Source: Gammaproteobacteria bacterium (GTDB lineage: Bacteria > Pseudomonadota > Gammaproteobacteria > Burkholderiales > Nitrosomonadaceae). Taken from it: DNA of 64,000 bases. The translations under genes were made by a program, and so were the position numbers. Below are positions 10,576-23,235 of this stretch, piece by piece. The notes below the pieces were generated by a model that worked only from the letters and a program-made list of their open reading frames with translations, had not been told where the DNA came from and searched no databases. The DNA lies in NCBI GenBank assembly GCA_030431985.1, contig JAUIIB010000001.1, forward strand, positions 1-64,000, in the 5' to 3' direction. Position 1 is the stretch's first letter. Each line of letters begins with the position of its first letter.

Positions 10576-11766
10576 TCAATGTTCCAGTATTTGTTGATAC
10601 AATTTGGCAAATGTATCGCCAACGTAGGTCATTTGTTCGGTTGTATGGGCCGCATTGACACTGCAGCGTACTAGAGATTTTCCATCCGGTGCGGCAGGCG
10701 GTAAAATTAGATTGACATAAATATTGTGCTCTAACAAACTCTGCCAGATTTGTAGTGCTTGTTTAGGGTTGTCTAGTATTGCAGCAATAACTGGACCCGG
10801 CTCTGGTCCCAGTTCGTAGCCCGCTGTTTTGAGGCGTTCATAAAGCTGAGAGCAATTTTTCCAGAGTTGCTTGCGCAAATTATCGCCGTTCTTTAATAAT
10901 GCTAATGCGGCACGTGTTGACGCAATAGTTGCGGGTGAGGGGGATGCTGTAAAAATATAAGGGTGGCTCACAAAGCGTAGTTGGTCGAGTTGTGAATGGT
11001 TGCTAACACAAAAACCGCCAATACTGCATAGGCTCTTGCTGAATGTGCCTGTAATAAAATCTACTTCATTCAGTAGTCCCGTTTTTTCTACCAGCCCTTG
11101 TCCCGTTTCGCCTAGAACACCTAGCGAATGTGCCTCATCCAGTAATAAGGTACAGTTGTACTTATTTTTGAGACGTACAATTTCCGCCAGAGGGGCTTGG
11201 TCGCCCAACATGCTGTATATGCCCTCAACGATGATTAACGTTGTTTCGGTTCGATTGCCTAAGCGTCGCAGCCGTTTTTCCATGTCGGCCATATCATTAT
11301 GTTTAAAGCGAATAATCTCGGCGCCGCTTAAAATACAACCATCGTAAATACTGGCATGAGAATCGCCATCAATGAGTACGGTATCACCGCGACCTACTAA
11401 GCCAGAAATTGTTCCCAAGTTAGCCTGATAGCCCGTAGTAAATACGATGCCTGCAGAGCATTGATAAAAATCCGCAAACTCTTGCTCAAGTGCTCGGTGG
11501 CCATAATAACTGCCATTGGCCATTCTTGAGCCGGTAGTACCCGTTCCTTCGTGGTTGAGCGCTTGGTGGGCTGCTTCGATACATTCGGGTGCGAAGGTTA
11601 AACCGAGATAATTGTTGGTTCCAAGCAAAAGCACACGGCGCTCGCCAATTTTTGCTTCCGTTGCAGAATATACTTCCTCTATGGGAATTCCAAATGCGCC
11701 CACACCGTCAGGCAACATCGCTTTTCTCGCAGCAGCTGCCGCATCTAGTTTTTCTAATAAGTTCAT
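10576..11766 (-). CDS. spt: Serine palmitoyltransferase (alpha-oxoamine synthase)
   Basis: PLP enzyme that condenses L-serine with an acyl thioester to 3-ketosphinganine, the first step of sphingolipid synthesis. The PLP lysine lies in GTFSKSLCSIGGFCVSN near residue 240. This matches bacterial SPT (GTFSKS then GGF) and not KBL, BioF or ALAS. Other SPT-like stretches are GTGTTGSRMANGSYYGH, DGDSHASIYDGC, VEGIYSMLGD and DEAHSLGVLG. At 396 residues the length is typical of the soluble bacterial enzyme. Its ATG abuts the stop codon of the carrier-protein gene, so it is the last gene of a four-gene operon. A relative making other alpha-aminoketones is possible but less likely. The assignment rests on motif comparison from memory. 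Confidence 0.9.
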   Translation of the reverse strand: MNLLEKLDAAAAARKAMLPDGVGAFGIPIEEVYSATEAKIGERRVLLLGTNNYLGLTFAPECIEAAHQALNHEGTGTTGSRMANGSYYGHRALEQEFADFYQCSAGIVFTTGYQANLGTISGLVGRGDTVLIDGDSHASIYDGCILSGAEIIRFKHNDMADMEKRLRRLGNRTETTLIIVEGIYSMLGDQAPLAEIVRLKNKYNCTLLLDEAHSLGVLGETGQGLVEKTGLLNEVDFITGTFSKSLCSIGGFCVSNHSQLDQLRFVSHPYIFTASPSPATIASTRAALALLKNGDNLRKQLWKNCSQLYERLKTAGYELGPEPGPVIAAILDNPKQALQIWQSLLEHNIYVNLILPPAAPDGKSLVRCSVNAAHTTEQMTYVGDTFAKLYQQILEH

Positions 11767-12021
11767 TTAATGAGTGGATTTGATTCTTGAGATAAGACCC
11801 GCAAGTTCATCAACTGTTTGCACATCGGCCAACGCGTTGATAGGTATAGAAATATCAAATGTATCTTCAATTTCCATAATTAGATTGAGCAGCTTAATAG
11901 AATCAATTGAGAGCTCGCTGATAAGATTGGTTTCAGGCGTAACAGTGGCCTCTGAATTCGTTAAGCTGTTGAGGCGATCACACAATAATTGCATGATTTC
12001 ATCGTAGTTACTTTCATTCAT
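11767..12021 (-). CDS. Acyl carrier protein of the sphingolipid operon
   Basis: An 84-residue acidic four-helix carrier protein. The phosphopantetheine serine lies in ELSIDSIKLL near residue 41, a DSI variant of the usual DSL. It is distinct from the housekeeping AcpP and sits between the acyl-AMP ligase/reductase genes and serine palmitoyltransferase. The likely role is to receive the fatty acyl group from the ligase and present it to SPT, as described for the Caulobacter and Sphingomonas clusters; that is inference from gene context. The stop codon abuts the SPT start, suggesting translational coupling. Confidence 0.9.
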   Translation of the reverse strand: MNESNYDEIMQLLCDRLNSLTNSEATVTPETNLISELSIDSIKLLNLIMEIEDTFDISIPINALADVQTVDELAGLISRIKSTH

Positions 12022-12049
12022 AAATCAATAGTGCTCCTGAAACTCCCTG

Positions 12050-12964
12050 TTAAACAATGGAGGGTAACGTTTCGCGCAAACGCATGCCTGGCCGCCACCC
12101 TGGAAGTGCTCGAATTAAAGATGTATTATCGCATACCCAGTCATGGTATTGCAGTTCTTTAACTTTTCCGGGTGTTAACATGGGAGAGTAGTTAAATAAT
12201 TGTGCCATCCCGAGATTCAATAGTGCTGTGGCTTTAATTAAAGCATGTGGAATCATAATACAGCGAACTGGTTTTTTCCAAACTTCTTGTGCCAATTCTG
12301 CGAGAGTTTCAAAGCTGTAGCCATCAGGAGTGCCGTCATCCAATTCAAAAATGTCGTTACACGGCGTTTTTGAATTCAGCCAAAGACGGATGGCGTTCAC
12401 TAAGTCGTCTACATGAATAAGACCAAATCGGTTGTTTAATTGTCCTACAACCGGGAGTATTCCTTTACGTGTCGCTTTAAAAAGTGGTTTGAGTTCTTTG
12501 TCACCTGGACCATAGACTGCTGTTGGTCTAAAGATTGTCCATGATAAGTGAGTTGAATGGTGAATAACTTGGTGTTCAGCCAGGCGTTTGCTTTCAGCAT
12601 ACCAAGAAAGCTCCGGATGCTTGGCTGCAAGGGAGGAAATATGCAGAAAACGCGGGATTTTGTTTTGCCGGGTTGCGGCATCAAGTAGATTCTTTGTTCC
12701 AGTTACGTTGGTACGTACAAATTCTTCAAATGAACGCCCTCTAACTGAGCCGGCACAATGGACAATTGATGAAACATTCTGTGTCAGTGCATTTAGCGCT
12801 GATTGATTGTCCAAATCCCCATGAATCCACTCTATAGTTGACTCGGTATCTGCTTTTTTTTTTCTTGTAAGTGCTTTGACTTGCCAGCCTTCACTGGCAA
12901 GTTGATGAGCTAATCGATAACCGATGAAACCAGTAGCACCTGTTACCGCTACTGGTTCTCGCAT
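12050..12964 (-). CDS. Extended SDR reductase, likely ceramide reductase (CerR-like)
   Basis: A 304-residue NAD(P)-dependent extended short-chain dehydrogenase. The nucleotide motif TGATGFIG is at residues 8-15 and the catalytic Ser (HISSLAA) and Tyr-Lys pair (WYAESK) are near residues 110-126. In experimentally described bacterial sphingolipid clusters a NAD-dependent epimerase-like gene in this position reduces the 3-oxo group of the oxidised ceramide or long-chain base; the same role is inferred here from the neighbours. The ATG begins 6 bp after the ligase stop codon, and 28 bp separate it from the carrier-protein gene. Sugar epimerase activity cannot be excluded from sequence alone. Confidence 0.82.
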   Translation of the reverse strand: MREPVAVTGATGFIGYRLAHQLASEGWQVKALTRKKKADTESTIEWIHGDLDNQSALNALTQNVSSIVHCAGSVRGRSFEEFVRTNVTGTKNLLDAATRQNKIPRFLHISSLAAKHPELSWYAESKRLAEHQVIHHSTHLSWTIFRPTAVYGPGDKELKPLFKATRKGILPVVGQLNNRFGLIHVDDLVNAIRLWLNSKTPCNDIFELDDGTPDGYSFETLAELAQEVWKKPVRCIMIPHALIKATALLNLGMAQLFNYSPMLTPGKVKELQYHDWVCDNTSLIRALPGWRPGMRLRETLPSIV

Positions 12965-12970
12965 GACGGA

Positions 12971-14788
12971 CTAACGATCTCCTGATTCAACCACAGATAG
13001 TTCATTATTAAGATTTGTACGCTGTATATAACCCTGGCGTGCCGCAAAACGAGATAATTTGCCGGAGGACGTTCTCGGCAAAGTATGTGGCGGTACGAGT
13101 TCTACTATACAACTCACACCAAAGGCCATATAAACCAGTTGTTGCAATCGTTTTATTAATGAGTGGCGCTCTGATATTGCGGTTAACCGGCACTCGATAA
13201 CCAATACAATTGTCGTGGTTCCGTCAGCATCATTAACACCAAATGCAGATGCCTCTCTGGATCTAACTTCAGGTTGTTGTTCTGCAAGTTCTTCAATATC
13301 TTGGGCACGAATATTACGCCCATTTACAATGATGACATCTGTGCGCCGACCAGTGATATATAAGTCGCCTTCATATAAAAACCCGATATCGCCTGTATCT
13401 AACCAATTGTTTGGTTTTAGGGCTTTTTGTGTTTCTTCCGGATTATTGTAGTATCCCGTCATAATGCTTGCGCCCTGGACTAAAACACTGCCAACTTTGT
13501 TTTCTGCTAACTGCTGACCATTTTCATCGACAATCTTGACAATGTGACCTGGAAGCGGGCGTCCACAATTGACAAACTCGTTATATTTACGGCCTTCAGC
13601 TTGTAATTTAACGGCCATTCGCTGATCGATAAGCGTTTTGCTGTCAATTTGTATGCTATCAAACCCGTTTCCAATTTTTGAAAAGGTGACTGCCAGCGTT
13701 GATTCGGCTAAGCCATAGCAGGGCAGGAAAGCACTTGAATTAAAGCCAGCTGAAGAAAATTTCTCAGCAAAATTCCTTAATGTTTCCGGGCGAATCATTT
13801 CTGCACCGATACCTGCAGCACGCCAGCAACTTAAATCTAGGTCCTGTAAATCCGATTCTCGTACGCGCATGGTGCACAATTTAAGCCCGAAAGGCTGGCT
13901 GAACGCTACTGTACATCGATTGCGGCTAATAAGTCTTAGCCATTGTAATGGTCGAATTGCAAAATCTCGTGTTGCTAAATAATCAACCGAAAGCTGTGTG
14001 ACCATCGGTGCCAGAACTAAACCCACTAACCCCATGTCATGATAGAAAGGCAACCAGGATGCAGAGCGATCGCCAGGCCTTATTTCTAAACCGTTTCTGA
14101 CAATACCTTGCAGATTGCACATCAGTGCATGCTCTGTAATGACTACCCCACGTGGCATACGTGTACTGCCCGAGGTGAATTGCAAATAAGCTACTTCATC
14201 CGGTTGATTTGATTGCGGCTCAATTTCTTGTGCGGGCAATTCCTCCAGTTGATCTGCGGTTCCAATCCATTTCAATGTTGCTGATTTTTTTGCAGCTTCA
14301 TTCAGGAAATTGATGTAGTCTAAATTTGCAAAAGCCAGACTTGCATGACTGCTATCCAGCATTCCTTTAAGTTGTTGGACATAAACGCCATGACTTCCCA
14401 GGTTAACCGGGACAGGCATGGCGAATGGCGCAAGCCCAGCATAGCGGCAGGCAAAAAATAACTCAATAAATTCAGGCGATGTGTCAGCAATGATAGCAAC
14501 TCGACTACCGCGATCCAAATTAAATCCGGCAAGATGTTGTGCTAATGCGCGCGCTTTGTTTCTGAGTGAGCTGTAAGGTAATACTGACCGCAAACGACCT
14601 TTTGCGTCATAGAAGTTATATCCGGTATTTCCCTGTGCAGCATACTCCAACGCATTTGTCAGGGTGTCAAATCCTGCCAAACGTTGCGTAAGCGTATTGC
14701 GAGTCGGTGTCGGTAATAATTCGCTTGAAGGCTGAAAATCAAACGCTTGCGTTAGCGGAGCGTTCAACTTGGCTATTGTCGAACTCAA
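12971..14788 (-). CDS. Fatty acyl-AMP ligase / acyl-ACP synthetase
   Basis: Adenylates a fatty acid and is expected to pass it to the dedicated carrier protein. At 605 residues it fits the FAAL branch of ANL enzymes. Motifs: the P-loop FTSGSTRMPRGVV near residue 210, the FAAL-typical LPFYHDMGLVG, CYGLAESTLAVTF, and DTGDIGF with the hinge ITGRRTDVIIVNGRNI near residue 470. No carrier or reductase domain is fused. The start is a TTG at 14788: no ATG lies nearby in frame, and GAGGGG is 6 bases upstream. The stop codon of a 13-codon upstream ORF overlaps this TTG. It is the first large gene of the four-gene operon. Confidence 0.9.
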   Translation of the reverse strand: MSSTIAKLNAPLTQAFDFQPSSELLPTPTRNTLTQRLAGFDTLTNALEYAAQGNTGYNFYDAKGRLRSVLPYSSLRNKARALAQHLAGFNLDRGSRVAIIADTSPEFIELFFACRYAGLAPFAMPVPVNLGSHGVYVQQLKGMLDSSHASLAFANLDYINFLNEAAKKSATLKWIGTADQLEELPAQEIEPQSNQPDEVAYLQFTSGSTRMPRGVVITEHALMCNLQGIVRNGLEIRPGDRSASWLPFYHDMGLVGLVLAPMVTQLSVDYLATRDFAIRPLQWLRLISRNRCTVAFSQPFGLKLCTMRVRESDLQDLDLSCWRAAGIGAEMIRPETLRNFAEKFSSAGFNSSAFLPCYGLAESTLAVTFSKIGNGFDSIQIDSKTLIDQRMAVKLQAEGRKYNEFVNCGRPLPGHIVKIVDENGQQLAENKVGSVLVQGASIMTGYYNNPEETQKALKPNNWLDTGDIGFLYEGDLYITGRRTDVIIVNGRNIRAQDIEELAEQQPEVRSREASAFGVNDADGTTTIVLVIECRLTAISERHSLIKRLQQLVYMAFGVSCIVELVPPHTLPRTSSGKLSRFAARQGYIQRTNLNNELSVVESGDR

Positions 14789-14826
14789 GATCTTCCCCTC
14801 GAAGTAATATAACTTGTACTTTTCAT
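14785..14826 (-). CDS. Possible 13-codon leader ORF overlapping the FAAL start
   Basis: ATG at 14826 is preceded by AAGGA with a 7-base spacing, an excellent ribosome site. It encodes MKSTSYITSRGRS and ends in a TGA that overlaps the TTG start of the acyl-AMP ligase by two bases, the geometry of translational coupling. The Shine-Dalgarno lies inside a small inverted repeat (TTCCTT-AGC-AAGGAA, 14832-14846), so its access could be regulated. The ORF is short enough to be chance. Confidence 0.3.
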   Translation of the reverse strand: MKSTSYITSRGRS

Positions 14827-15189: not shown

Positions 15190-16326
15190 TTACTTAAGGC
15201 TATTAATAAATTGTTGGTCAATGTGATTTTTCCAGTACCAAACCCACGACCCGTGAACGAAGATAGCACCTCGAGAAGCGGCAGCGTATTTTTTACCCAT
15301 GGTTAATAAACTCAAGGAATGTTTTTTTGGTTGAAAAGGAACGAGTGACTGATTTCTACATGCGGCAACCAGATTTTTGAGGAGTGTTGGCCCTTGACGT
15401 ACTGCAAAAACTCCGGATTTTGGTAATTTTTGTGGCATAAATCTAGCGCAATCGCCCGATGCGAAAATATTTGAATGAGAAAGGCTTCGTAGATATCGAT
15501 CAATTTCTATGAATCCATGCTGATCGCATTGTAATCCACTTATGCCCGGCCATTGATATGCATCAGCATGGGTCGACCAAACCGTAAAATCATAGTCTAT
15601 TGTAAGGCCGTTTTGAAGGTGTAGTTGGCGTTCGTCTATCGCTTTAACTCGGCCGTATTCGATTGTTATTTCATGGGATTGTAAATACTGTTGAAAGAAT
15701 TGCTGAATAGAAAAATTGTGTGTCGGTAGAATTGTTTTTTCTGCGCATACTAATGTGAATTTGGCTTTCCTTGATGAAGTATTTTGCCAGCAATGGTGCA
15801 AAGAAAGTAGTGTTTCAATGCCTGCTGCACCACAGCCAACTATTACTATTTGTTGCGTGTGATTTGAATGGGGTCGAGATGCTAGCCAATGATGCCATTT
15901 GCACAAAAATCTTTTTGCCGGCTTTATAGGCTGGCCATATTGTTTTGCCCCGCGAATGGTGCTTATGGCAGGTCGTGAGCCAATGTTTATTGACAGATAG
16001 TCATATCTAATCGGCGAGGATTGAATGCACTCTATAAGATTTGAGTTTGGCTTGATTTGTTTAACTTGTTTTTGGGTAAATTGTACGCCATTATTTTGGC
16101 AAAGATTACGCAAGTCGATATGGCAGTCTTCAAATAAGTAATGACCGGCAAGCAAGCCGGGCAACATTCCGGAATACGATGTGAATCTATCGGTACTAAT
16201 TAGCGTGATACAAATGTCAGGAATCGATAGTGTGGCCAACTGTTTAATAGCGGTCAAGTGCGCGTGCCCGCCACCGACTAAGCATATATGCTTTTTATGG
16301 CTATGGGAGAAGGGGAGGGGTTGCAT
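15190..16326 (-). CDS. SelD-associated FAD/NAD-dependent oxidoreductase, stand-alone
   Basis: A pyridine nucleotide-disulfide oxidoreductase-like flavoprotein with the layout of NDH-2 enzymes and of the domain found fused to the N-terminus of selenide, water dikinase in some bacteria. The FAD motif LVGGGHAHL lies at about residues 15-23 and the NAD(P) motif IVGCGAAGIE in the middle; ASGDCARF near the end completes the FAD site. No SelD domain follows, and the length of 378 residues matches the single domain. I chose Met27 of the longer frame (16326) because the upstream start at 16404 is a TTG and would add an odd 26-residue tail. The substrate is unknown; a membrane-peripheral dehydrogenase role is possible. 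It stands alone. Confidence 0.78.
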   Translation of the reverse strand: MQPLPFSHSHKKHICLVGGGHAHLTAIKQLATLSIPDICITLISTDRFTSYSGMLPGLLAGHYLFEDCHIDLRNLCQNNGVQFTQKQVKQIKPNSNLIECIQSSPIRYDYLSINIGSRPAISTIRGAKQYGQPIKPAKRFLCKWHHWLASRPHSNHTQQIVIVGCGAAGIETLLSLHHCWQNTSSRKAKFTLVCAEKTILPTHNFSIQQFFQQYLQSHEITIEYGRVKAIDERQLHLQNGLTIDYDFTVWSTHADAYQWPGISGLQCDQHGFIEIDRYLRSLSHSNIFASGDCARFMPQKLPKSGVFAVRQGPTLLKNLVAACRNQSLVPFQPKKHSLSLLTMGKKYAAASRGAIFVHGSWVWYWKNHIDQQFINSLK

Positions 16327-16477
16327 ATTGAGTACTGTCTTGATTGAAACGATTATCGGTAATTTGACGTGAGAAAAATTAAAGTCTAATCTGATAGAGC
16401 ACAAAATATTTGACCGGTTCGGATCAAATAATAATTAAAATCTTAAATTGTTTATACAGTTAATAATTGGAGGGGTG

Positions 16478-17107: not shown

Positions 17108-17591
17108 TACAGTCTTTCGACAGACGGTGTCAATTCATCTCGGTAAATCTCGGGGATTGCATATACTGAATGGGTCATTGCTAATTCGACGGGAATGGCA
17201 TTCATGTAGGTACATGAAGATGAGTAAAATCTTGCAATAGGTGACAGTGCAAAAAGTGTTGTTTTTATACAAAATGTACCTTGTATATAAAAATTAGAGG
17301 GTTGTCTCGATAACTGATTGTTATTTGTCGGCTTTTTGTCTGGGTAGTGATTGTTGCTGCATAGTCTGAGTTTCAGTGTTCGACTATAAGGCAGATATAT
17401 TACGATATAATTCAGCAGATTGGATAATTGAGTTTTGAACTGATTCAAAATCAATTGTTATTAATTGTTAATTGATCGATGATTGATTGAATGGAATATG
17501 ATCAATTTTTTAATAAATTATAAGCTATAAGCGCTTGGTGTGTGATTTAAGTGCTAAAGCGGAAAATATAAGTTATTGGAGGGTTTTGCCC
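17108..17591. other. Intergenic gap upstream of the hopanoid block
   Basis: No supported gene. It contains a TATACAA/TTGTATA inverted repeat (17266-17287) and an AT-rich stretch with a possible -10 TATGAT at 17497-17502 preceded by TTGATC at 17472-17477 (19-bp spacing, longer than ideal). This is the likely promoter zone for hpnH. Confidence 0.35.
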
Positions 17592-18710
17592 ATGGGAGTA
17601 CCTTTACGTCAACAGATAGCGGTAGGCAGTTATTTAATTAAGCAAAAGATTAAGGGTGTTAAAAAATATCCTTTGGTGCTGATGCTGGAGCCGTTATTTC
17701 GTTGTAATTTAGCATGTGCTGGTTGTGGAAAAATAGCGCACCCAGAAGATATTTTGGACAAGCGTTTGTCTTACGAGGAATGTATGCAGGCCGTTGACGA
17801 ATGTGGTGCCCCAATGGTTTCAATTCCTGGTGGAGAGCCGCTGCTGCACAAAGAAATGCCCCAAATTGTTGAAGGCATTATTAAACGAAAAAAGTACGTC
17901 TATCTGTGTACTAATGCATTGTTGCTCAAAAAAAGGATGGATGATTATAAACCATCGCCATACTTGACGTTTTCAGTACATCTGGATGGAATGAAGGAAA
18001 GGCATGATGCCTCAGTTTGCCAAGATGGGGTGTTTGATCGAGCGGTTGAGGCTATTAAGCTAGCGCTCGACAAGGGGTTCAGAGTTACCGTTAATTGCAC
18101 CCTGTTTCAGGGAGAAACACCTGATGACGTTGTTGAATTTCTCGACTATGCTATGGAGCTTGGTGTAGAGGGCGCCACAATTGCACCAGGATTCAGTTAT
18201 GAACATGCTCCAAAACAAGATGTATTTATAAAGGGTGCGGATACCAAGAAACTGTTCAGAGGAATTTTTGAATTAGGTAAAAAGCTTAAACGAAAGTGGC
18301 GGCTTAATCATTCTGCGCTTTATCTGGATTTTTTGGCAGGGAACCAGAACTACAAGTGTACGCCATGGGGCAACCCGACACGAAATGTGTTCGGTTGGCA
18401 AAAGCCATGTTATTTGTTGGCTGACGAAGGTTATGTTGAAACCTTTCAAGAATTACTTGATACAACCCCGTGGGAGAAATATGGTAATGCTCAAAATCCA
18501 AAGTGTGCTCAGTGTATGGCGCATTGTGGATATGAGGCAACAGCAGTTGAAGATACCATGCGCCACCCTTGGAAAGCATTTGTAACAGCCGTTAAGGGAC
18601 CTAAAACAACAGGGGAGATGGTTGCGGAACCGATGCCACAATGGATCTCTCAAGAAGACAAAAAAGACGAAAAATTGTCTGATATACCTGTAACTGTTTC
18701 GAACAAATAG
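17592..18710 (+). CDS. hpnH: Adenosyl-hopene transferase HpnH (radical SAM)
   Basis: Radical SAM enzyme that adds the 5-prime-deoxyadenosyl group to diploptene, the first step toward extended C35 hopanoids. The iron-sulfur motif Cys-x3-Cys-x2-Cys lies at residues 38, 42 and 45 (CNLACAGC), followed by SIPGGEPLLH and a C-terminal cysteine-rich segment (CAQCMAHCGYE). At 372 residues the length is standard. The start at 17592 gives the family-typical MGVPLRQQ N-terminus with GGAGGG 8 bases upstream; a longer TTG-initiated frame from 17535 is rejected. It is the first gene of a four-gene hopanoid block; squalene-hopene cyclase is not in the window. Confidence 0.96.
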   Translation: MGVPLRQQIAVGSYLIKQKIKGVKKYPLVLMLEPLFRCNLACAGCGKIAHPEDILDKRLSYEECMQAVDECGAPMVSIPGGEPLLHKEMPQIVEGIIKRKKYVYLCTNALLLKKRMDDYKPSPYLTFSVHLDGMKERHDASVCQDGVFDRAVEAIKLALDKGFRVTVNCTLFQGETPDDVVEFLDYAMELGVEGATIAPGFSYEHAPKQDVFIKGADTKKLFRGIFELGKKLKRKWRLNHSALYLDFLAGNQNYKCTPWGNPTRNVFGWQKPCYLLADEGYVETFQELLDTTPWEKYGNAQNPKCAQCMAHCGYEATAVEDTMRHPWKAFVTAVKGPKTTGEMVAEPMPQWISQEDKKDEKLSDIPVTVSNK

Positions 18711-18766
18711 CAAGAAGGTGATGCATTATTGATGCTGTTTTACGCCAGCGTCTTTGAGCGTAGATA

Positions 18767-19921
18767 ATGGGTTATCTTTTTCCCGATTTACTTTTTAGTG
18801 TTGGGCTGGGGTGCGCGGTAATTGGCGCTATATGCTGGTGGTCAATATTGTTGTTGCCCTGGCGTCCTGCAAGTGTCCGCGAAAATATTGAACCGGCAGT
18901 TGCGATCCGGTCCGGTCGTCAGTTGAACGATATTACAGTGTTGATACCTGCGCGTAATGAAGCGCAGTTTATTCAACACACAATTGATACAGTCAAAATT
19001 CAAGGTGATGGTATAGAGATCATCGTAATCGATGATCAATCTACAGATGAGACTGCACAATTGGCTCGTAAGAAAGGTGCTAAAGTGATAAGCGGAACGG
19101 CGCCTCTGCCCGGTTGGAGTGGTAAACTTTGGGCGCTCGAACAGGGTTTGCGTAAGGTAAAAACCCCTTATACATTATTACTTGACGCTGATATTGCATT
19201 GTCGCCCGGTACTATTGCGACTATTCGAGATAAACTCGAAACCGAACAACGTGCTTTGGTATCGCTGATGGCAGCCCCTTCATTAGATAACGTTATCGAG
19301 CGTTTTCTAATGCCCGCATTTATTTTTTTCTTTAAGTTGTTGTATCCATTCGGTCTGGCAAATAAGCCCACTTCTCGTTTGGCTGCTGCTGCGGGCGGTT
19401 GTATTTTGGTCAAAACACAGGCATTGCATTCGGTGGGGGCTTTCAAAAGTCTCCACAATGCGATGATAGATGATTGTACTTTGGCGACACACATAAAAAA
19501 TGCCGGCAACAAAATATGGGTAGGATTAAGTCATGCTGCACAGAGTCATCGTGGTTATCTTTCATTGTATTCAATATGGGAGATGGTGGCACGTACGGCG
19601 TATACTCAGCTTAACTATTCTTTAATGTTGCTCATTCTATGTACCGTTATAATGCTTTCGATGAGTTGGGTCGCGCCGTTTATTTTTCTGCTGTTGCCAA
19701 ATCAGAACACTTATATGATCAGCGCATTAACATGGGTGGCTATGTTTTTTGCATATAGTCCGACTCTAATTTATTATCAACGTTCGTTATTCTGGGTATT
19801 GTCATTACCATTTATTGGCACGTTATACCTTGCCATGACGTGGACTTCTGCAATACGTTACTGGCGTGGCGAACGTGCTCGTTGGAAAGGCCGTCAATAT
19901 GAAAGTAAAACAAGTTATTAG
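18767..19921 (+). CDS. hpnB: Hopanoid glycosyltransferase-like protein HpnB
   Basis: Family 2 glycosyltransferase (384 residues) found in hopanoid clusters; its exact acceptor is not established. It has an N-terminal membrane segment (residues 7-28), the GT-A core TVLIPARNEA and VIDDQSTDET, LLLDADIALSPG with the DxD-type motif, an acceptor-loop region DDCTLATHIK, and three C-terminal membrane helices. It is 56 bp after hpnH and overlaps hpnM by 23 bp, so the genes are co-transcribed. The symbol follows the hopanoid context and typical length. Confidence 0.9.
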   Translation: MGYLFPDLLFSVGLGCAVIGAICWWSILLLPWRPASVRENIEPAVAIRSGRQLNDITVLIPARNEAQFIQHTIDTVKIQGDGIEIIVIDDQSTDETAQLARKKGAKVISGTAPLPGWSGKLWALEQGLRKVKTPYTLLLDADIALSPGTIATIRDKLETEQRALVSLMAAPSLDNVIERFLMPAFIFFFKLLYPFGLANKPTSRLAAAAGGCILVKTQALHSVGAFKSLHNAMIDDCTLATHIKNAGNKIWVGLSHAAQSHRGYLSLYSIWEMVARTAYTQLNYSLMLLILCTVIMLSMSWVAPFIFLLLPNQNTYMISALTWVAMFFAYSPTLIYYQRSLFWVLSLPFIGTLYLAMTWTSAIRYWRGERARWKGRQYESKTSY

Positions 19922-20558
19922 AAAATTTCATTGGTTGTGGTTTCAGATGGGTTTGATGGCGTTATTGCTATGCGTTGTAATGTCAGCGGTTAACGCGGCC
20001 GAGACAGATGAACTGCAGTCAGATAACGCACAAGCTGTTGTAGAGCATCTTCAGAGGTCTTTGATTCAGGCAATGCGCAAGGGCGAACAATTAGATTTTG
20101 AAGAACGGATAGCTTTTTTGTCGCCAGTGATCGATCAGACGCATGACATTAAATTGATAATTAAAACTATTCTTGGTGCTACGTTGTGGCGTCAATTAGA
20201 TCAATCACAACAAGATTTGATTGTTGAAACATTTCGTCTGTTAAGTGTTGCGACTTATGCAGGGCGGTTTAAGTCATATAGTGGTGAACAGTTTGAATTG
20301 CTGGAGGAACGTGATTTGGCTGGAGACCAGAAGCTGGTTCGTAGTCGGCTGATTACCGGCGATGGCGGCAGCGTTAATTTTGATTACGTTTTGTATAGCC
20401 ATGATGGCCATTGGGTCATTATCAATATTTTGTTTGATGGAGTAAGTGACTTGGCAATTAAGCGAAGTGAATATCGTTCAATTATGCAACGGGAAGGATT
20501 TCAATCATTAATAGATATGTTGAATATCAAAATTTCTGAAGCAGAACAAAATGAATAA
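19899..20558 (+). CDS. hpnM: Hopanoid-associated periplasmic protein HpnM (MlaC/Ttg2D-like)
   Basis: A periplasmic lipid-binding protein of the MlaC fold. The signal peptide ends near AVNAAETD (about residue 34), and the mature part shows IKTILGATLWRQL and TYAGRFKSYSGEQF, typical of this family. It probably hands hopanoids or other lipids to or from HpnN. The start at 19899 (inside the hpnB 3-prime end) has GGAAAGG about 8 bases upstream and gives 219 residues; an upstream frame start at 19866 adds 11 unlikely residues. hpnN follows after 34 bp. Confidence 0.9.
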   Translation: MKVKQVIRKFHWLWFQMGLMALLLCVVMSAVNAAETDELQSDNAQAVVEHLQRSLIQAMRKGEQLDFEERIAFLSPVIDQTHDIKLIIKTILGATLWRQLDQSQQDLIVETFRLLSVATYAGRFKSYSGEQFELLEERDLAGDQKLVRSRLITGDGGSVNFDYVLYSHDGHWVIINILFDGVSDLAIKRSEYRSIMQREGFQSLIDMLNIKISEAEQNE

Positions 20559-20592
20559 TTGCATTTGTCTCTAATTTAGAAGGAAATTCTCT

Positions 20593-23235
20593 GTGGGAGT
20601 TGCTGGTCGCTCAGGTAGTCGCTTTTTCGTCCGCTGGGCTGCGTTTTCCTATCAGCACGCTATTTGGGTCATCATAACGGCAATAGTTATTGCTGGTTTG
20701 AGTTTGACCTATACTGCAACAAATCTGGGTATACATACAGATACAACGGACATGCTTTCTGAGGATGTTCCTTTCCGTATCAATCACAAACGTTATAAGG
20801 AAGCTTTCCCGCAATATGAAGACGCATTGCTTCTGGTGGTGGATGCACCTACACCAGAGCAGGCCCATGAGGCTGCGAAACGCTTGGCTGGTAATTTACA
20901 GAAAGATAAGGCGCATTTTTATGAGGTGAATTATTTAAGTGGCGATCCTTTTTTTGAGAAGAATGGTTTGCTGTATAAAGATGTGGTCGAGTTAGAAAAA
21001 ATTACTGACCAGCTTGCTTCTGCACAACCATTGATTGCACGTTTGGCGAAGAATCTGACATTGGGTGCTTTTGCATCGGTGTTAACAGAAGCTGTCAATG
21101 AAATCAATAAAGGAAGGGACTTAGATCTTGATGCCGTTTTCAGGGGTGTAAGCACGGCATTGAATGCCAGATTTGCAGGGACACCGCATGCATTGTCATG
21201 GCAAGCACTGTTGGGGGGGGTACAACAAGTTGACCATTATCAAGAATTGGTATTAGCGAGGCCCAGACAAGACTATACACAATTATTTGCTGCTGAAGCC
21301 GCTTTAGTAGCTGCACGTGAAGCGGCTGCGGTTCTTGGAATATCGCATAATGCATCTGTAAAAATGCGCATTACCGGAGAGGCGGCACTGGCTTATGATG
21401 AGCTCCACAGTGCTATGAAGGGTGCTCAAGATGCAGGTGTATTAGCGCTTATATTAGTGATAGTGGTATTGTTTATTGCATTGCGTACTGTGGGTGCAAT
21501 TATGACGGTAATTTTCAGTCTTGTCTTAGGATTGATTTTGACAGCCGCTTTTGCAACCTTTGCCGTTGGACATTTAAACTTAATTTCGATTGCTTTTGCT
21601 GTGCTGTATATCGGTTTGGGTGTGGACTATGCCATCCATTTTTTGTTGCGGCAGGAGGAGATCAGAGGCGCCGCCCATACGGTTGCCAGAGCAGTGCCAA
21701 TAGTGGGTGGAGATATAGGACAGGCGTTGATGATCTGCGCATTGACTACCGCAATTGGTTTTTATGCGTTTATACCAACGTCATATGATGGGGTGGCTGA
21801 GCTTGGTTTGATTTCCGGTTCTGGAATGCTTATCAGTCTGTTGGTGACATTGACGATTGTACCTGCTTTGCAGCGCTATTTCCCGATAAAATCCATTAAA
21901 TCGATTCTGTCAGTTCGGTCGATACAAACTGTTTTAGAATGGCCGGTACGTGCGCGAAAAAGTGTTTACTTGCTGACAGCTATCACCGTCCTTTTATCGG
22001 TCATTGCTTTACCGCAGGTGCGTTTTGATTATAATTTACTCAATCTAAATGATCCAAAGAGTGAATCTGTAGAAACTTTTCGTGATTTACTCGAAAATGC
22101 TGATGACTCACCTTGGCATATTATTGTGCTTGCCGATAATCAACTTGAGGCAGCTCAGCTAACTCAGCAGCTATTAGCGTTACAAGAAGTCGATAAGGTT
22201 GTAACCATTCTCGATTTTGTTCCAAATGACCAGGAAGAGAAAAGGCAATTGATTAATGAGATGGCTATGATGCTTGGTCCCGTTACATTTCCTCAGATGC
22301 AGCAGCAACAGATTGATGTGGAGTTACAAAAAGCGGCGCTGGAGGATTTGGGAAATGCGTTGAGCCGACTGATTATTGAACAACCTGCACACCCATCGAT
22401 TAAGTTAGTTCATGCTTTGCATGAATCACTTTCTGAGTTGTCATCGCAACTCGAATTAAACAATACACCCGAAGCGCAGATCAGATTGTTATCCGCAATT
22501 GAGAGAGATTTGTTGTATCTCCTGCCTACATCGATTCATCGATTGCAGCTTGCGTTGGCAGCCACACCTTTTGCCCTGCAAAGTATCCCGGAATCAGTCA
22601 AGGTACACTGGCAGAGTCGTTCGGATGTTTATCGGATTGCCGTTTATCCTGCTGAAAATATTGATGATAATGATGCATTGAAGCGATTTGTTCATGCGGT
22701 ACAGCGTATCTCCCCCGGTGCGACCGGTGTACCTGTTATTAGCCTGGAGGCCGGCAAAGCGGTTGTTGAGGCGTTTATCTATGCTTTCTCGTTAGCGTTT
22801 ATTGGTGTTGTTCTGGCTTTGCTGGTGTTGCTAAGAAGTGTTAAATCAACCGTGCTGGTTTTTGTACCATTACTTCTGGCAGCGCTATTTACAGGAGCAG
22901 CGACTGTTCTTCTGGATATACCGTTTAATTTTGCTAATATCATTGCATTGCCGTTGATACTCGGCATAGGTATTGATTGCAGCGTGCATATGGTGCATAG
23001 AAGCCGTAGCAGCGGAGAAGCATACGAAAATTTACTGCATAGCAGTACGGCTCGTGCAATTTTTTATAGTGCGTTAACTACAATGGCTGGATTTGGCAGT
23101 TTAATCTTTTCACAGCATCAAGGTACAGCAAGTATGGGATTATTGTTGCTTGCCGGTGTTGTGCTGACACTGGTTTGCGTTTTAATTATTTTGCCAGTTC
23201 TACTCCATACCGTGGACAATCAACGGTCTGAATGA
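20593..23235 (+). CDS. hpnN: RND-family hopanoid transporter HpnN
   Basis: A large inner-membrane RND/MMPL transporter (880 residues) that moves hopanoids to the outer membrane in studied bacteria. There are two repeated halves, each with one N-terminal helix, a periplasmic domain and a block of five helices. The second helix block of each half carries the matching motifs GLGVDYAIHFLLR (near residue 340) and GIGIDCSVHMVHR (near residue 795). The GTG start at 20593 is preceded by AAGGAAA 8 bases upstream. It is the last gene of the block and is convergent with the RNA methyltransferase gene, across a 43-bp gap with an imperfect hairpin. Confidence 0.94.
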   Translation: MGVAGRSGSRFFVRWAAFSYQHAIWVIITAIVIAGLSLTYTATNLGIHTDTTDMLSEDVPFRINHKRYKEAFPQYEDALLLVVDAPTPEQAHEAAKRLAGNLQKDKAHFYEVNYLSGDPFFEKNGLLYKDVVELEKITDQLASAQPLIARLAKNLTLGAFASVLTEAVNEINKGRDLDLDAVFRGVSTALNARFAGTPHALSWQALLGGVQQVDHYQELVLARPRQDYTQLFAAEAALVAAREAAAVLGISHNASVKMRITGEAALAYDELHSAMKGAQDAGVLALILVIVVLFIALRTVGAIMTVIFSLVLGLILTAAFATFAVGHLNLISIAFAVLYIGLGVDYAIHFLLRQEEIRGAAHTVARAVPIVGGDIGQALMICALTTAIGFYAFIPTSYDGVAELGLISGSGMLISLLVTLTIVPALQRYFPIKSIKSILSVRSIQTVLEWPVRARKSVYLLTAITVLLSVIALPQVRFDYNLLNLNDPKSESVETFRDLLENADDSPWHIIVLADNQLEAAQLTQQLLALQEVDKVVTILDFVPNDQEEKRQLINEMAMMLGPVTFPQMQQQQIDVELQKAALEDLGNALSRLIIEQPAHPSIKLVHALHESLSELSSQLELNNTPEAQIRLLSAIERDLLYLLPTSIHRLQLALAATPFALQSIPESVKVHWQSRSDVYRIAVYPAENIDDNDALKRFVHAVQRISPGATGVPVISLEAGKAVVEAFIYAFSLAFIGVVLALLVLLRSVKSTVLVFVPLLLAALFTGAATVLLDIPFNFANIIALPLILGIGIDCSVHMVHRSRSSGEAYENLLHSSTARAIFYSALTTMAGFGSLIFSQHQGTASMGLLLLAGVVLTLVCVLIILPVLLHTVDNQRSE

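Follow-up and report, generated by a model that had tools for sequence, protein, structure and literature searches.

We analysed a stretch of 64,000 nucleotides (positions 1 to 64,000 of contig JAUIIB010000001.1, GenBank assembly GCA_030431985.1), called here the window, and found on its minus strand the operon aasR-cerR-acpR-spt (10576-14788), which very probably makes the long-chain base of ceramide, with the ceramide synthase (CerS) encoded elsewhere in the genome. To judge by sequence similarity, homologues of all five ceramide genes are present in this genome, on two contigs. A sphingolipid (long-chain base) function had been put forward in an initial annotation of the same DNA and is now strengthened: the serine palmitoyltransferase (SPT) passed the family model NF047599, kept the catalytic residues and grouped with SPTs in the tree. 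The operon as a trait of the genus Nitrosomonas is already published; what we add is its conservation throughout the family Nitrosomonadaceae and the fusion of a lipid kinase with a Tam41-like protein.

The aasR-cerR-acpR-spt operon

Four abutting open reading frames (ORFs) on the minus strand encode a fatty acyl-AMP ligase (FAAL), an SDR-family reductase, an acyl carrier protein (ACP) and SPT, just as the initial annotation had described; the gaps between them are 6, 28 and 0 bases. The first gene, aasR (12971..14788), encodes a FAAL or acyl-ACP synthetase of 605 amino acids (aa) when counted from TTG 14788 (NCBIfam NF006624, 852.6 bits, cut-off 600). It is followed by cerR, or epi (12050..12964), for an extended SDR reductase of 304 aa with the motifs TGATGFIG and YAESK (Pfam Epimerase, 9.7e-31), and by acpR (11767..12021), for a dedicated ACP of 84 aa bearing the phosphopantetheine serine in the motif DSI at residues 40-42 (Pfam PP-binding, 2.1e-11). 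The last gene, spt (10576..11766), encodes a pyridoxal phosphate (PLP) enzyme of 396 aa with K244 in the motif GTFSKS, identified as SPT by NF047599, the PDB match 2x8u, its residues and the tree. The location of acpR directly before spt, with aasR and cerR nearby, is the arrangement by which we recognised a ceramide gene set.

The operon had been delimited as 10576-14826, of which the end at 10576 stands and the 5′ boundary does not. The ATG at 14826 is out of frame for aasR and runs into a stop after 13 codons; the listed start is the TTG at 14788, preceded by GAGGGG. This start is itself uncertain, as the alignment with the E. coli homologue does not begin before residue 36. A scan for promoters and terminators in the window gave nothing above shuffled sequences (7 promoters vs. 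a mean of 10.9, 6 terminators vs. a mean of 5.2), and the window yielded no RNA family at the gathering score and no tRNA.

The one-strand order FAAL-SDR-ACP-SPT was kept in 30 of the 37 loci retrieved via SPT, so the arrangement is more than chance. Among the exceptions, L082 revealed SPT alone of the four, beginning 2.6 kb from the contig end, while L083 has ACP and SPT adjacent, with the FAAL and a weaker SDR match 9-11 kb off; L087-L091 are distant enzymes of other phyla (28-41% identity).

From the homologues and the literature we infer the reactions and the final lipid as follows. AasR would activate a fatty acid with ATP and load it onto AcpR, SPT would convert acyl-AcpR and L-serine into 3-oxo-sphinganine, and CerR would reduce the keto group. 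CerS would attach the second acyl chain; published proposals place this step either ahead of the reduction or behind it.

Identity of the serine palmitoyltransferase

The SPT scored 578.9 bits with NF047599, the NCBI equivalog model for beta-type SPT (cut-off 500), and failed the alpha-type model NF047603 (429.3 of 670 bits) and the Bacteroidota-type SPT model (359.2 of 640). Its best PDB match was the Sphingomonas SPT 2x8u (E 1.4e-118, 399.3 bits). The catalytic residues were compared in an alignment of 78 rows, duplicates and some non-SPT relatives included. Residues H159, D231, H234, T262, K265 and R390 of the Sphingomonas structure 2JG2 correspond to H137, D210, H213, T241, K244 and R367 in the window; the first five are kept in 78/78 rows and R390 in 77/78, with one gap. 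The SPT-type lysine motif GTFSKS noted in the initial annotation is thus present, with K244 equivalent to K265.

In a tree of 46 rows (the Nitrosomonas loci L004-L033 and L053 and the short or duplicate rows L087, L049 and L003 having been dropped), the window SPT falls into a starred clade of nine Nitrosomonas rows, itself counted (100/96), within Nitrosomonadaceae. Nitrococcus forms the next group (81/82, not starred), and the two Sphingomonas SPTs, then the Bacteroidota type, fall outside Nitrosomonadaceae and Nitrococcus. The tree program warned of long branches, E. coli and the outgroups among them.

The enzyme could in principle be an autoinducer synthase of the CqsA/LqsA type or another alpha-oxoamine synthase (BioF, KBL), supplied with an acyl group by the ACP and the ligase. 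It belongs to the same superfamily and matched both the bioF model (325.7 bits) and the autoinducer-synthase model NF005526 (227.8 bits), but both scores are far below the respective cut-offs of 426.45 and 428, whereas the SPT cut-off was passed. Likewise, the match to CqsA 2wk8 reached only 126.6 bits vs. 399.3 for 2x8u, and a CerR-like SDR and a CerS homologue accompany the PLP enzyme. The tree places the window enzyme with the solved SPTs and far from the second alpha-oxoamine synthase of the same genome. It held no CqsA or LqsA rows, so these were set aside by the model and PDB scores; by these scores, the relationship with LqsA/CqsA, to which the initial annotation had drawn attention as a sign of another function, is not borne out. 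Altogether, we consider an autoinducer or BioF-like function extremely improbable.

Ceramide synthase homologue and the second locus

The initial annotation had reported no CerS in the window and supposed it to be elsewhere or replaced; the search of the whole genome bears out the former and not the latter. As a query we used YghO of E. coli BL21 (NC_012971), named as the acyltransferase for dihydroceramide (PMC9386255), with E up to 0.001 for the search of the genus. The genome of the window encodes a full-length homologue on contig C26 (G000:C26:53241-54350; E 3.4e-121, 49% identity to YghO over 375 aa). Matches were obtained in 82 of the 85 Nitrosomonas genomes, with those in G022 and G063 only partial, and none was found by the YghO search in G009, G031 and G048. 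All 81 genomes above the SPT cut-off have a CerS match (partial in the same two), and of the four genomes below it only G020 has one.

A pathway that ends at the free long-chain base or at 3-oxo-sphinganine, with the ceramide synthase missing or replaced, would agree with the lack of a CerS in the window and with the nature of the FemAB-type protein on C26, which is an XrtA/PEP-CTERM protein. It is at odds with the full-length homologue and with the matches, some of them partial, throughout the genus, and we regard it as having hardly any likelihood. Another route to CerS was tried through PF04339, a family associated with bacterial ceramide synthase. A search with it gave a match over the cut-off in the control Caulobacter vibrioides; the lone, sub-threshold match in the genome of the window was that same FemAB protein (TIGR03019, 518.2 bits), and neither YghO nor the CerS homologue matched PF04339.

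Several points weigh against the synthesis of ceramide by these enzymes. First, cerS and spt lie on separate contigs in this genome. Second, searches of the CerS homologue against Pfam (E up to 0.001 and up to 5) and NCBIfam (E up to 1e-8) gave no match, and it owes its name to the homology to YghO and to the literature. Third, Leu355 of the window SPT stands where S. paucimobilis SPT has R378, a residue reported to bind the carboxylate of serine (PMC3794620), and the Sphingomonas motif PPAT is PPAA here.

The third point might suggest an SPT-like enzyme that prefers glycine, alanine or cysteate, yielding an aminoketone or a sulfonolipid and no sphingolipid. Over the 78 rows, the R378 position is L in 66, R in 4, V in 3, I in 2, N in 2 and a gap in 1; the four R rows are two Sphingomonas rows and two distant ones, and the aligned beta- and gammaproteobacterial SPTs have L, V or I. 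The E. coli BL21 SPT with the same Leu converts L-[14C]serine to a compound running like 3-oxo-sphinganine, and much prefers Caulobacter palmitoyl-AcpR over palmitoyl-CoA (PMC9386255). Since this active enzyme has Leu and the S. multivorum SPT has Val, the loss of R378 does not disqualify the window enzyme as SPT. Moreover, the cysteate acyltransferase 28eh was a much weaker match (178.2 bits). We therefore judge a preference for another amino acid very unlikely and retain SPT acting on serine.

Next to cerS on C26, and on its strand, are genes for a MobA-like NTP transferase, LptF, LptG, a CDP-alcohol transferase, a lipid kinase (DAGK_cat), a 322-aa protein and a DUF2959 protein. Where the two genes share a contig, cerS and the kinase gene are at most 10 kb apart in 63 of 65 Nitrosomonas genomes, and spt and cerS at most 15 kb apart in just one of 16 (G070); these counts leave out any second copy of CerS and the matches that are only partial (G022, G063). 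In Nitrococcus (L079, L081) and a gammaproteobacterial metagenome-assembled genome (L080), CerS, the NTP transferase, LptF, LptG, the kinase and the 322-aa protein are clustered beside FAAL-SDR-ACP-SPT, and the 7 kb or so upstream of the operon in Nitrosomonas sp. Nm51 (L065) hold the genes for the CDP-alcohol transferase, the kinase, the 322-aa protein and the DUF2959 protein. These arrangements allow us to assign the two loci to one pathway. Nitrococcus mobilis (L079, L081) is a nitrite oxidiser; it carries the ceramide operon, with an SPT identity of 62-63%.

The corresponding Caulobacter region makes ceramide phosphoglycerate (CPG) lipids. At least 13 of its 17 genes have good orthologues in N. 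eutropha, and this species is expected to make both CPG and CPG2 (PMC11324152). Gene content, neighbourhood and the published work point to the DAGK_cat protein as a putative ceramide kinase. Together with the nucleotidyltransferases and the CDP-alcohol transferase near cerS, it would probably turn ceramide into anionic phospho-sphingolipids resembling CPG and CPG2 of Caulobacter, which LptF and LptG, encoded beside cerS, would probably help to carry to the outer membrane.

Caulobacter requires CpgC to turn ceramide-1-phosphate into CPG, by a mechanism described as unidentified (PMC12275187), and a nucleoside diphosphate-activated ceramide has already been suggested for CC_1161 from an InterPro hit (PMC11324152). 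On the same grounds as for the kinase, the 322-aa protein is a candidate CpgC orthologue. With PF09139 (Tam41, the mitochondrial CDP-diacylglycerol synthase), it reached 15.7 of the 24 bits needed (E 0.0098). We modelled the structure of its 72% identical homologue from Nm51 (L065), using an alignment of five rows, three of them truncated (pLDDT 79.4, pTM 0.80). The best matches of the model were Tam41 structures (Foldseek E 7.6e-10, TM about 0.5); with 7ecd, 227 residues were aligned at 3.1 Å (Z 18.3), the next unrelated entry having Z 7.5. As predicted from this model, the 322-aa protein has the Tam41 fold, which alone does not show function.

Of the 82 genomes in which the 322-aa protein has a match, 22 show it within an open frame of 665-709 aa, and in these same genomes the kinase also matches inside a frame of 665-709 aa. 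For four (G029, G038, G058, G075) a single stop is reported in the kinase match; as the one ORF in each of their fetched loci begins at kinase residue 22, this stop lies upstream of it. Among 30 fetched loci, the highest-scoring ones and not a random sample, seven (L109, L112, L115, L117, L118, L119, L120) have one ORF of 664-698 aa matching nearly the whole of the kinase and of the 322-aa protein. A kinase fused to a Tam41-like enzyme fits the sequence ceramide, ceramide-1-phosphate, CDP-ceramide, and the latter is further supported by the shared frame combined with the fold match to Tam41. Putting these together, we find evenly balanced the chances that the candidate CpgC is a Tam41-type cytidylyltransferase converting ceramide-1-phosphate to CDP-ceramide, that the CDP-alcohol transferase then swaps CMP for the glycerate head group, and that in about a quarter of Nitrosomonas genomes one bifunctional protein unites it with the kinase. 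Among the literature matches listed, no paper on a Tam41 link or on CDP-ceramide in bacteria was found. If true, phospho-sphingolipid synthesis in bacteria would run through CDP-ceramide in the same way as phospholipid synthesis runs through CDP-diacylglycerol. The link between the kinase and the Tam41-like protein makes the open step of the Caulobacter CPG pathway directly testable.

Distribution, neighbours and comparison with known systems

SPT above the cut-off was found in 81 of the 85 Nitrosomonas genomes and in 119 of the 125 genomes of Nitrosomonadaceae. The four below it are G009 (80% complete, with a partial match of 374 bits where a contig begins), G020 (66%), G031 (76%) and G048 (91%). 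At the level of the order, 16 of 399 genomes, a sample drawn evenly from a larger group, have SPT, 13 of them Nitrosomonadaceae and 3 outside. The trait is near-universal in the family and uncommon around it. Together with the tree, in which SPT follows the family, this suggests an early acquisition and vertical descent since. Sphingolipids are thus likely a core trait of Nitrosomonadaceae and, as such, may belong to the envelope of these nitrifiers and may serve as lipid markers for them, which is checkable in culture. The initial annotation had called them unfamiliar in ammonia oxidisers; the surprise is weaker with the operon already in print for N. eutropha C91 (PMC9386255). Among the open-licence literature matches listed, sphingolipids in ammonia oxidisers were represented only by genome-based statements on N. 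eutropha (PMC9386255, PMC11324152).

The Nitrosomonas source presumed in the initial annotation agrees with the nearest SPTs, which are from Nitrosomonas (87-90% identity), and amoA (PF02461) was not found in the assembly of the window (91% complete, 62 contigs). We read this absence as assembly loss and not as proof of anything. The gene was found in 46 of the 85 Nitrosomonas genomes and missed in 38 of the other 84, including the single-contig G043 (89% complete); among those assembled in one to four contigs, 12 have two or three copies. In three genomes (G001:C5, G011:C26, G066:C1) a copy lies about 4-5.5 kb from spt.

Hopanoid genes occupy 17535-23235 on the plus strand of the window, beginning about 2.7 kb from the 5′ end of the operon: hpnH (555.3 bits, cut-off 225.05), an hpnB-like gene (TIGR03469, 362.9 bits, just below the cut-off of 379.25) and two genes that, though named by no model, are presumably hpnM and hpnN. 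We found hpnH in 83 of the 85 Nitrosomonas genomes, 81 of which have both hpnH and spt. In 44 genomes the two share a contig, and in 35 of these they are no more than 15 kb apart, a count that ignores kinship; hpnH stands on one side of the operon in some of the loci read and on the other side in others. A TIGR03169 oxidoreductase gene (15190-16404) precedes the operon on its strand, and a homologue of it occurs near the operon in seven named loci. The TIGR03169 part is usually N-terminal to SelD.

Of the known systems, the Sphingomonas SPT structures 2JG2 and 2X8U share the catalytic residues with the window SPT (E down to 1.4e-118); they differ in having R378 and PPAT where the window enzyme has Leu and PPAA, and the alpha-type model NF047603 is not passed here. 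In E. coli BL21(DE3), the genes ECD_02850-02854 (yghO, aasR, epi, acpR, spt) have the same FAAL-SDR-ACP-SPT order, with identities of 54% for SPT, 47% over 552 aa for AasR, 41% over 300 aa for the SDR, 39% over 69 aa for the ACP and 49% for CerS; there, however, cerS (yghO) adjoins the operon, and lptG and lptF follow spt on the opposite strand. The region CC_1152-CC_1168 of Caulobacter crescentus, by its published description, likewise combines ceramide genes, ceramide kinase, nucleotidyltransferases, a CDP-alcohol transferase and a second LptF/LptG (PMC11324152), but as a single region, whereas here two loci lie on different contigs. N. eutropha C91 is another species of the same genus and has, as compared via published locus numbers, the same four genes in the same numerical order, Neut_0458 (aasR), Neut_0459 (epi), Neut_0460 (acpR) and Neut_0461 (spt), with aca/cerS far apart as Neut_1100 (PMC9386255), and its operon has been assigned to ceramide synthesis (PMC9386255; PMC11324152).

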